From contig CABJBK010000008.1 in the NCBI GenBank assembly GCA_902363825.1, positions 1-64,000 on the forward strand: a DNA stretch of 64,000 bases. The letters run 5' to 3'. The notes below the pieces were generated by a model. That model was not told the DNA's origin, did no database searches, and was given only the letters and a program-made list of their open reading frames with translations. Position 1 is the stretch's first letter. Each line of letters starts with the position of its first letter. Made by a program: the position numbers and the translations under genes. Shown piece after piece: positions 31,955-61,414 of this stretch. This stretch comes from Lachnospiraceae bacterium (GTDB lineage: Bacteria > Bacillota > Clostridia > Lachnospirales > Lachnospiraceae).

Positions 31955-32082
31955 TAAAATAAAGTGTGCGCTTACCGCACACTTTCGCGCGCGAGCGGTA
32001 TGTTCAACATAAACTTCATCTCCGCGAGCTGCGCATCCCCGCGGAGCGTTTTTAAATCATAGGAAGGAATTTCCTATGATTC
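31955..32082 (-). repeat. 128-bp perfect repeat element, copy 1
   Basis: Identical at all 128 positions to 61254-61381 and in the same orientation. It contains three hairpins: AATCATAGGAA with its complement (32055-32081), CTCCGCG with CGCGGAG (32020-32046), and AAGTGTGCG with CGCACACTT (31962-31984), the last followed on the minus strand by TTTATTTT like an intrinsic terminator. On the minus strand the element starts right after the T-run of the GH2 terminator. One minus frame is open for 33 codons (31972-32073), containing MKFMLNIPLARESVR and stopping inside the terminator-like loop. I do not recognise the family. Confidence 0.9.
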
Positions 32083-32086
32083 AAAA

Positions 32087-32137
32087 TAAGAGCCCTGCAC
32101 CGGCTGATCGTTTTCAGCCGTGCAGGAGCTCTCTTTT
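32087..32137. terminator. Bidirectional terminator between GH42 and GH2 genes
   Basis: A long stem: CCTGCACCGGCTGA against TCAGCCG-TGCAGG with a small bulge, flanked by AGAG/CTCT, followed by seven T on the plus strand and TTATTTT on the minus strand. It can end both convergent genes; the repeat element is inserted on the GH42 side. Confidence 0.8.
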
Positions 32138-32144
32138 TTTCTGC

Positions 32145-35249
<3,105 letters not shown>

Positions 35250-42297: not shown

Positions 42298-44214
42298 CTA
42301 TTCTTCTAACGCTTCCAGTTCTCTCTGCCAGGCTGCCGCTGCCGCGTCACTCGGCATTCTGAGATCCCCGCGCGGGGATACCGCAACCGTACCGACTTTC
42401 GGTCCGTCCGGCAGACAGGAGCGTTTAAACTGCTGCGCAAAGAACCTGCGGTAAAATGTCTTCAACCACTTTAGAATTGTCTCTTTCTCATATACCCCGT
42501 CAAACGCGATCTTCGCCAGGCGGTAGATCTTGGACGGCGTATAGCCGAAACGCAGGATATAATAGAGATAAAAATCATGCAGTTCATAAGGCCCTACGAT
42601 ATCTTCTGTCTTCTGCGCAATCTTGCCATCCTCCGGAGGCAGCAATTCCGGGCTGACCGGCGTATCCAACACGTCAAGGAGCACTTCTTTTAATTCCTCA
42701 TCTCCGCAGACATCCGCGTAATAGGAAACCAGATGGCGCACCAGCGTCTTCGGCACCGAGGCGTTGACCCCGTACATGGACATATGATCGCCGTTGTAAG
42801 TCGCCCATCCAAGCGCAAGCTCTGACATATCTCCGGTTCCGATGACCATGCCGCCGTTTTTATTCGCGATGTCCATTAAGATCTGTGTCCGTTCTCTCGC
42901 CTGTCCGTTCTCATAAGTAACATCATGGACGGTCTCGTCCTGCCCGATGTCCCGGAAGTGGACGCGCACGGCATCCGCGATAGGAATCTCCCGGAATTCC
43001 GCGCCCAGACACCGGATCAGCTTCACCGCATTCTCATAGGTCCGGTCCGTTGTTCCAAATCCCGGCATCGTGACCGCTGTGATCTGTCCACGTTCCAGTC
43101 CAAGCAGGTCAAACGCGCGCACTGTGACAAGAAGCGCCAGTGTGGAATCCAGCCCGCCGGAAATGCCTACGACCGCGTTTTTGCAGTGTGTATGCTCCAG
43201 ACGTTTCTTTAATCCCATCGACTGGATGGAAAGGATCTCCTCACACCGTCTGTCTCTGTCCAACTTGCTGCCCGGCACAAACGGAGCCGGATCGATGAAA
43301 CGTGTCAGTGTGGTCTCCTCGGATTTCAAATGGAATATCTGATTTACATAATTCCCGCTTTTCTGTCCAAACGTTGTCATTTTACGGCGCTCTGCATTCA
43401 GGCGGAAGATATCAAACTCTGAATAGACCGTCTCATTGGCAAAACGCTTCGCTTCCTTTAATACCGTGCCGTTTTCCGCGATAATGTTGTGCCCGGAATA
43501 AACCACATCCTGCGTGGACTCCCCGTCTCCGGCACTCGCGTATACATACCCACACAAAAGCCTTGCGGACTGCCCTGCGACCAGCGCCGTGCGGTAACGG
43601 TCTTTTCCGGTCGTCTCATCACTCGCCGAAAGATTTACGATCACATTCGCTCCCGCAAGCGCATGTGCGATACTCGGCGGCTGCGGTGTCCACAGATCCT
43701 CACAGATCTCTGCCGCCACACGAAGCTCCGGCATCTGGTCACAGCAAAAGATCTGATCGGTTCCGATCGGAAGACGAAGCTCCGGTAAAAACTGTGTTTC
43801 CTCTACCTGCTTCATCCCTCTCGCGAAATGGCGCGCCTCATAAAATTCACCGTAATTCGGAATGCAGGTCTTTGGCACCAGTCCGAGGATTTTCCCGTGA
43901 TTGATCGCAGCTGCCACATTGTAGAGTTTTCCAAGATGTTCATACGGCAGACCGACAAAAAGAAGCGCATCGAGCTCCTTTGTCTGTTCCGCGACCGCGA
44001 TCAGCGCTGTTTTTGCCTCACGCAGTAAAGTCTCCTGCAAAAACAGATCGCCACAGCTGTATGCTGTAATGCAAAGTTCCGGAAATACAATAATCTTCGC
44101 GCCGTTTTTCGCCGCATCCTTTGCGAGCGCGACGATTTTTTTCGCATTCTCCGCCGGGTCAGCGACCGTCACCTTCGGTGTCACCGCCGCGACCCTGATA
44201 AATCCCTGTCTCAC
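42298..44214 (-). CDS. nadE: Glutamine-dependent NAD+ synthase
   Basis: A 638-residue two-domain enzyme of NAD synthesis. The N-terminal nitrilase-type glutaminase has Glu in FPELCITAYSCGDLF, Lys in VPKTCIPNYGEF, and catalytic Cys in AAEICEDLW. The C-terminal ATP pyrophosphatase domain has the P-loop GISGGLDSTLALL and GTGDMSELALGW. The glutaminase lets it use glutamine rather than only ammonia. Its start overlaps the end of hslO by four bases (ATGA), so the two are translationally coupled. Confidence 0.96.
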   Translation of the reverse strand: MRQGFIRVAAVTPKVTVADPAENAKKIVALAKDAAKNGAKIIVFPELCITAYSCGDLFLQETLLREAKTALIAVAEQTKELDALLFVGLPYEHLGKLYNVAAAINHGKILGLVPKTCIPNYGEFYEARHFARGMKQVEETQFLPELRLPIGTDQIFCCDQMPELRVAAEICEDLWTPQPPSIAHALAGANVIVNLSASDETTGKDRYRTALVAGQSARLLCGYVYASAGDGESTQDVVYSGHNIIAENGTVLKEAKRFANETVYSEFDIFRLNAERRKMTTFGQKSGNYVNQIFHLKSEETTLTRFIDPAPFVPGSKLDRDRRCEEILSIQSMGLKKRLEHTHCKNAVVGISGGLDSTLALLVTVRAFDLLGLERGQITAVTMPGFGTTDRTYENAVKLIRCLGAEFREIPIADAVRVHFRDIGQDETVHDVTYENGQARERTQILMDIANKNGGMVIGTGDMSELALGWATYNGDHMSMYGVNASVPKTLVRHLVSYYADVCGDEELKEVLLDVLDTPVSPELLPPEDGKIAQKTEDIVGPYELHDFYLYYILRFGYTPSKIYRLAKIAFDGVYEKETILKWLKTFYRRFFAQQFKRSCLPDGPKVGTVAVSPRGDLRMPSDAAAAAWQRELEALEE

Positions 44215-60740: not shown

Positions 60741-61233
60741 TCCCATATTCCTCCTTTAATTTTTCGCCAAGCAGTTTCCTGCCTCTCGACAGCCAGGTCT
60801 TTACTGTTGCCTCCTTGGTATCCAGTATCCCGGCAATGTCCTTTACCGTCAGCTGCTCATAATAAAACAGGTGTATGACATCACGGTATTTGTCCGGAAG
60901 TTCCCTTACCGCTTCATAAACATCCGAAAAATCTTCCTGTTCCTCCGGTTCTTCCATCAGCATTGCGTCCTCATATGACGCCCGTTTCCGGTTCCACGCC
61001 GTCGTCGCGACGCTTTTGCACTGATTGATCGTTACCCGTATCAGCCACGCCTTTAAATGTTCCTCACTTATAATACTTTCCTGATGCGATACGAGTTTCA
61101 AAAAAACGGTCTGAAATACATCTTCCGCCGTTTCTTTATTATTGGTATTCAAACATGCCAGCCGATACACCATATCCGCGTATGTACGGACTGCTGCCTC
61201 GGTATCCACCACATAACTATCCGCTCTCTCCAT
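60727..61233 (-). CDS. RNA polymerase ECF sigma factor
   Basis: A 168-residue extracytoplasmic-function sigma factor. Region 2 includes VYRLACLNTNNKETAEDVFQ and LKAWLIRVTINQCKS; region 4 includes LPDKYRDVIHLFYYEQLTVK and GILDTKEATVKTWLSRGRKL. The ATG at 61233 with AAGGGAA ahead is taken; the frame extends into the repeat element. No clear promoter lies between it and the 128-bp repeat (20 bases upstream), so its promoter must lie within or beyond the repeat. The partner anti-sigma gene overlaps its end. Confidence 0.92.
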   Translation of the reverse strand: MERADSYVVDTEAAVRTYADMVYRLACLNTNNKETAEDVFQTVFLKLVSHQESIISEEHLKAWLIRVTINQCKSVATTAWNRKRASYEDAMLMEEPEEQEDFSDVYEAVRELPDKYRDVIHLFYYEQLTVKDIAGILDTKEATVKTWLSRGRKLLGEKLKEEYGNGRI

Positions 61234-61253
61234 GTGTATTCGTTCCCTTCTAG

Positions 61254-61381
61254 TAAAATAAAGTGTGCGCTTACCGCACACTTTCGCGCGCGAGCGGTAT
61301 GTTCAACATAAACTTCATCTCCGCGAGCTGCGCATCCCCGCGGAGCGTTTTTAAATCATAGGAAGGAATTTCCTATGATTC
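61254..61381 (-). repeat. 128-bp perfect repeat element, copy 2
   Basis: Identical over all 128 positions and in the same orientation to 31955-32082. On the minus strand it begins at the base after the T-run of the clostripain terminator and ends 20 bases before the sigma-factor start codon. The same three hairpins and the same 33-codon open frame (61271-61372) are present. Confidence 0.9.
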
Positions 61382-61414
61382 GAAAAATATGCCTGCCGGA
61401 CGGCAGACATATTT
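61382..61414 (-). terminator. Terminator after the clostripain-family gene
   Basis: Minus strand AAATATG-CTGCCG pairs with CGGCAG-CATATTT around a short loop (61385-61414), followed by a T-run (ATATTTTTC). The repeat element starts immediately after. Confidence 0.75.

Follow-up and report, generated by a model that had tools for sequence, protein, structure and literature searches.

Group IIC introns insert directly behind intrinsic terminators, beside a T-rich target, as described in PMC7161350 and PMC8919778, and the latter also argues that sites behind terminators are of low cost to the host. Terminator-like sequence is carried by the small repeat SPRITE, and small repeats such as SPRITE and BOX insert into one another (PMC10969869). 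A betaproteobacterial repeat provides a further parallel to the element described below (PMC3110155).

Here, we describe a short repeat that occurs twice in a stretch of 64,000 nucleotides from a Lachnospiraceae bacterium (assembly GCA_902363825.1, contig CABJBK010000008.1, positions 1 to 64,000), referred to as the window. Like group IIC introns, the element sits behind intrinsic terminators in the sense orientation, but with only about 130 nt it is too short to encode a reverse transcriptase and it lacks GTGYG, the start motif of group II introns. In a scan of the window and 26 further loci, no Rfam intron family with its domain V core reaches the gathering score, and around copy 1 no Rfam intron family is found up to E = 1. 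Nor does any Rfam family cover the element at gathering score in these loci; one sub-threshold match, to the opposite strand, overlaps copy 1 at its 5′ end (23.5 bits versus a gathering score of 47 bits). IS200/IS605- and RAYT-type elements have end hairpins and insert in an orientation-specific manner at a short target, and the element resembles IS200/IS605 derivatives (PATEs) and REP/RAYT systems in its near-end hairpins and orientation-specific insertion beside a short target. However, no partner with element-like ends is present in the loci read (18 transposase loci, three IS605 copies and two RAYT-like loci). The element is likewise short, dispersed, mostly intergenic and folded, as are SPRITE, BOX, RUP and MITEs (PMC10969869), whereas it differs from MITEs in having no terminal inverted repeats, and its fixed orientation behind terminators may set it apart as well. 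Literature searches found no description of this element family among the titles and abstract starts listed for open-access papers, so it may have been described elsewhere.

Anatomy of the repeat

The sequence-only reading of the window described two identical 128-base copies in one orientation, 29 kb apart, each beginning right after an intrinsic terminator on the minus strand and closing with its own terminator-like hairpin, with flanks that differ abruptly outside the match. Each of these points held: the copies agree at 128 of 128 bases and, when extended, at 131 of 132, they face the same way at a distance of 29,299 bases, and their flanks are unlike each other beyond the match (Table 1). 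On the minus strand, the target terminator of copy 1 reads GAGCTCCTGCACGGCTGA-AAACGA-TCAGCCGGTGCAGGGCTC-TTATTTT and that of copy 2 ATATGTCTGCC-GTCC-GGCAGGCATAT-TTTTC, each followed by the element, and the 3′ end of both copies is formed by the hairpin AAAGTGTGCG/CGCACACTTT and the tail ATTTTA. Copy 1 has the GH2 beta-galactosidase gene on one side and a convergent GH42 gene on the other, and copy 2 is flanked by a clostripain-family gene on one side and, on the other, by a gene for a sigma-70-like protein that starts 26 nt after hairpin 4. The pair is the sole direct-repeat family reported in the window (direct-repeat search, seed 14, minimum 30 nt). The window also contains an inverted pair of 31 nt at 33846-33876 and 42548-42578, 81% complementary and 8.7 kb apart.

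Table 1. Positions of the element copies, their parts and their target terminators in the window, and of second-subtype copies elsewhere.
Feature	Position	Strand	Remarks and basis
Element copy 1	31955..32082	minus (sense)	match to copy 2 extends to 32086 with one mismatch
Element copy 2	61254..61381	minus (sense)	match extends to 61385 with one mismatch
Intrinsic terminator behind GH2 beta-galactosidase gene, target of copy 1	32090..32131	minus	tail TTATTTT at 32083-32089
Terminator behind clostripain-family gene, target of copy 2	61387..61412	minus	tail TTTTC precedes element
Hairpin 1, copy 1	32054..32082	minus	GAATCATAGGAA/TTCCTATGATTT; both arms co-vary across the family
Hairpin 1, copy 2	61353..61381	minus	sequence identical to copy 1
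A5 tract, copy 1	32049..32053	minus	pairs with target T-tract in most family copies, prolonging hairpin 1
A5 tract, copy 2	61348..61352	minus	sequence
Core CGCTCCGCGGGGATGCGCA, copy 1	32030..32048	minus	sequence, fold, family alignment
Core, copy 2	61329..61347	minus	sequence
Hairpin 4, terminator-like, copy 1	31961..31985	minus	tail ATTTTA at 31955-31960
Hairpin 4, terminator-like, copy 2	61260..61284	minus	tail ATTTTA at 61254-61259
Second-subtype copies, G004:C1	L311 18500-18638; L313 10118-10263; L330 6905-7043 and 18249-18387; others

Read in the sense direction, the order is target T-tract, hairpin 1, A5-6 tract, core, bulged stem, hairpin 4 and tail, and four hairpins are obtained from the family-wide comparison where three had been claimed from the window. 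Hairpin 1 is AT-rich and almost perfect, and at its foot the target T-tract pairs with the A5-6 tract of the element. The core is CGCTCCGCG-GGATG, in its family form CGCTCC-GCGR-GGA(T)GCG; the stem behind it is topped by a small hairpin and interrupted on one side by a bulge of roughly ten bases, and tails such as TTTGTTC or ATTTTA close the element. Core variants exist within the family, and the invariance of the core is partly due to construction, as most copies were collected with the exact core pattern. A second subtype in G004:C1 has the same core, a long branched first hairpin starting TTTATCTCAGTC and the end GTTCGACTTGAA.

The window repeat folds with an energy 4.5 standard deviations below that of dinucleotide shuffles, and none of 200 shuffles is as stable. 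Among the 178 copies collected, 163 have a clear hairpin 1, and in 133 of these the stem continues through the A-tract; the A5 tract of copy 1 is unpaired in the minimum free energy (MFE) fold of the 128 bases alone, from which the target was left out. For the seven pairs inside the A-tract, 1087 of 1141 cells show Watson-Crick pairing, compared with a permuted mean of 639 and maximum of 695, and the pair adjoining the A-tract is A-T (93) or G-C (39) more often than G-T (9) or A-C (8), with 14 other combinations (Fisher test on the first four classes). RNAalifold predicts 30 pairs from an alignment of 27 diverse copies (A1), 18 of them changed on both sides. The three stems sought behind the core, taken together, lie above the 95th percentile of shuffles in all 27 sequences, their full pairing being given by construction. 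Single MFE folds scatter around the common structure, and in the window subfamily, whose core folds differently, part of CGCTCCGCGGGGATGCGCA can also pair with CTCGCGGAG downstream. In 109 of 163 copies, the 3′ end is formed by a hairpin followed by a T-rich tail. Since both strands fold about equally well (the sense strand is more stable in 52 of 86 copies), structure alone cannot tell folded RNA from DNA, and the other proposal of the sequence-only reading, a family of structured small RNAs, is neither favoured nor disfavoured by it. The ends of the copies in genome G006, ATGTAATAGG... and ...TTTGTTC, are not inverted repeats, in line with the absence of terminal inverted repeats noted earlier for the window. 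Two further ideas on hairpin 1 were dropped: its likeness to an Xer-type recombination site, because the spacer length varies freely, and a snap-back origin, because no inverted loop occurs among the G006 copies.

A Lachnospiraceae family positioned behind terminators

The element represents a family of about 125-140 nt in Lachnospiraceae. The covariance model R1, built together with A1 from the same 27 copies, has a match in 123 of the 200 Lachnospiraceae genomes sampled, with 16 candidates scored in each, and the copies are not confined to the two in the window, nor are other strains devoid of the element, which were the findings that, according to the sequence-only reading, would speak against mobility. 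In a phylum-wide sample, 5 of 199 genomes match, two of which are Lachnospiraceae and three weak: G004, the centre of the sample, G228, which is common to both samples, G564 with four weak matches, and two genomes with one marginal match each. All of 15 carrier genomes, picked for already holding a copy, match R1, with 27-149 matches each among the best 150 or fewer candidates scored. G006 has at least 75 places at E <= 4.1e-32, of which those at contig ends may represent one copy twice. Match numbers exceed copy numbers, as R1 also scores hairpin 1 on the opposite strand.

The core pattern AAAAACGCTCCGCGNGGATG occurs in at least 120 stretches of genome contigs, with titles naming Lachnospiraceae, genera of that family or wider Clostridia. 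In viral contigs the core pattern has 0 stretches, 14 phage records were matched in a sensitive search, every one a human faecal scaffold, and a plasmid search gave no match to the element. One of the 14, record MT835478.1 (L010), deposited as a bacteriophage, is 94-98% identical over long stretches to a Lachnospiraceae metagenome-assembly contig (L024, L237-L238), and may be bacterial chromosome, judging from this likeness.

Of 162 copies, 117 have a strong hairpin abutting the T-tract on its 5′ side, versus 40 of 715 control T-tracts from the same loci, coding ones included (odds ratio 44), the copies in these counts being related and not independent and the stems having been picked as the best for each copy; with the control restricted to T-tracts outside long open frames, a strong hairpin precedes 56 of 381. 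The hairpin threshold is missed by 45 of the 162 copies, four of which have no T-tract. Insertion the other way round is rare: where hairpin 4 is present and the flanks are long enough (108 copies), a terminator precedes the 5′ side in 70, whereas an opposite-strand terminator abuts the 3′ side in four. In 97 of 109 copies, element and upstream gene share a strand, at a median distance of 96 nt for these, and of 130 copies with enough flank, 15 lie inside mechanically called open reading frames and six have no called neighbour. In tandem arrangements, copies are located directly behind the tail TTTGTTC of another copy.

Terminators of regulatory leaders are also occupied. The leader of a threonyl-tRNA synthetase gene (product assigned by domains) was compared across the G004 genus, in eight genomes. 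The site just after the leader's terminator holds one element in G004 and in G017; G022 has two there, G016 a possible remnant, G018 and G019 none and G021 another sequence, and the contig of G020 ends at the site. Rfam identifies this leader as a T-box in G017 and G021, and also places T-boxes before the element in L332 and L058. Two leaders, those of G004 (L335) and L326, score under the Rfam T-box threshold; by motif, we take both to be T-boxes. A T-box motif search was positive for 2 of 156 copies. Riboswitches (cobalamin or TPP) are found close before the element in L006, L013 and L052 among 16 loci scanned, and in L013 the element lies between two TPP riboswitches. In such a position, the terminator-like hairpin of the element would separate the riboswitch from its gene. 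In 9 of 105 copies, hairpin 4 is followed within 40 nt by a start codon that has a Shine-Dalgarno-like motif (including window copy 2 at 61233-61260, and copies in L059, L266 and L054), and a start codon this close leaves little room for a promoter behind the element.

Probable mobility and candidate mechanisms

Comparisons within and between genomes give information on how the copies arose. The G006 set comprises 58 matches, some of them at overlapping loci and so counted twice: 47 come within 8 bases of both consensus ends, six lack the 5′ end, three the 3′ end and two both, with some of the losses at contig ends. Copies reaching both ends are about 95-100% identical to the consensus, and most stop at the same bases with unrelated flanks. 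Between G006 and G012 (metagenome assemblies, two rumen genomes), orthologous stretches are mostly 65-78% alike (one 86%), whereas element copies are mostly 95-99% alike (some 89-93%). Similarly, two copies in L061 agree with the G006 consensus at 97% and 95% of bases, whereas longer gene stretches there are 67-72% identical to G006.

Two orthologous sites carry the element in both G006 and G012. At one of them, the two genomes have different terminators but agree in the first 59 bases of the element; we tentatively read this as repeated use of one site, although it could also reflect vertical inheritance under constraint. In a species represented by two sources, three orthologous sites are occupied in both, and at a fourth a truncated copy faces a different, unalignable terminator without the element; of 22 copies in this species with a readable 3′ end, 12 have the tail TTTGTTC and 10 have others. 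No clean empty site was readable at base resolution in the pairs compared, and no insertion of the element family was present among the indels of the syntenic pair G124/G412. In G412, a different palindromic repeat, ACTATTCAGTAGCC...CAGTTAC, is present at about 8187-8325 of L217 (G412:C45 108187-108325) but not in G124; a repeat of GAAGAGTTTA on its two sides is likely a target duplication, and related sequences are found at other G124/G412 indels.

Multi-copy dispersal, sharp boundaries, position and orientation behind terminators, nesting, and hairpins kept despite sequence change are all directly visible in the sequences compared. Dispersed copies, their placement, tandems and copies more alike than genes uphold the earlier proposal of a terminator-targeting non-autonomous mobile element, and we consider it probable that the repeat is such an element of Lachnospiraceae, inserting mostly one way round directly behind the T-tracts of intrinsic terminators. 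The element would insert as a folded single strand, its A-tract at the foot of hairpin 1 pairing with the target T-tract, and an enzyme would be supplied in trans. The fixed orientation behind the T-tract, together with a usual tail (TTTGTTC) that does not resemble this tract, suggests a strand-specific reaction, presumably without target duplication. Against the latter, the element tail resembles the target tail in three copies (L242, L248 and L252), a likeness that could represent a short duplication. The T-tract/A-tract pairing suggests a guide, a role that we infer rather than read off, because both tracts are nearly invariant. By bringing its own terminator, the element would provide a possible next target, and insertions should cost the host little because the positions following a terminator are not part of genes and are expected to see little transcription.

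How such an element might be moved can be approached from several sides. Within the mobile reading, a palindrome-bearing IS200/IS605- or RAYT-type derivative, moved as single-stranded DNA by a Y1 transposase with the A-tract guiding it to the T-tract, is a possible mechanism that we put forward tentatively. It would fit the lack of terminal inverted repeats and of a clear target duplication, the hairpins near both ends and the orientation-specific insertion 3′ of a short T-rich target, and Y1 proteins are encoded in 13 of 15 carrier genomes. However, no Y1 protein was found in G006 and G013, both match-rich metagenome assemblies, the ends of the three IS605 copies of G004 and the flanks of the two RAYT-like genes of G002 are unlike the element, and two of the 18 transposase loci have a clear R1 match nearby and one a weak match, while at the two transposase loci read the element match is not at the transposon end. 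An autonomous partner with matching ends was absent from all loci read, copies without the 3′ hairpin included, and the genes shared behind such copies amount to one orthologous set (L017/L061) and one weak match (L021/L070). A PD-(D/E)XK nuclease gene adjoins one copy in L304, with one further relative in L235. It is rather doubtful, though conceivable, that the family represents a new class of mobile elements that find intrinsic terminators by base pairing, as folded RNA or single-stranded DNA with the A-tract as guide and an enzyme not known as a transposase.

Another mechanism within the mobile reading, a bacterial analogue of SINEs with the target choice of group IIC introns, seems unlikely. 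In this retroelement, an RNA ending at the element's own terminator would be copied into DNA behind terminators by a reverse transcriptase acting in trans. The element agrees in target, orientation and position with what PMC7161350 and PMC8919778 report for group IIC introns, and the 109 of 163 copies that close with a hairpin and T-rich tail resemble a terminated RNA. On the other hand, the reverse transcriptase domain RVT_1 is present in 9 of 20 carrier genomes and missing in 11, including the isolates G002 and G005 with 58 and 105 R1 matches (both strands counted); 5′ losses (six) hardly outnumber 3′ losses (three) among the 58 matches of the G006 set, some of them at contig ends; and the two strands fold about equally well.

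We regard it as very unlikely that the repeat is not mobile and that selection instead maintains it behind many genes as a functional regulatory RNA or a double terminator. Hairpins that are kept while the sequence changes, copies behind T-box and riboswitch terminators, and the 9 of 105 copies, window copy 2 among them, that end close to a start codon would agree with such a regulator, but near-identical copies behind unrelated genes, tandem nesting, truncated copies and a likeness of copies between lineages that greatly exceeds the likeness of genes would not be expected of one that is vertically kept. A segmental duplication, or gene conversion, confined to the window, to which the near identity of the two copies might point, has practically no probability given the occurrence of the family in 123 of the 200 Lachnospiraceae genomes, and the differing flanks agree with the earlier judgement that no neighbouring genes were duplicated.

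If mobile, as we think probable, the element would be a small and abundant one that shares the safe harbour of group IIC introns although it carries no reverse transcriptase. In common gut bacteria, genes, T-boxes and riboswitches gain a terminator-like hairpin from it, which may reshape the gene expression of its hosts, and the question of how a hairpin element finds terminators could be approached here in a tractable system.
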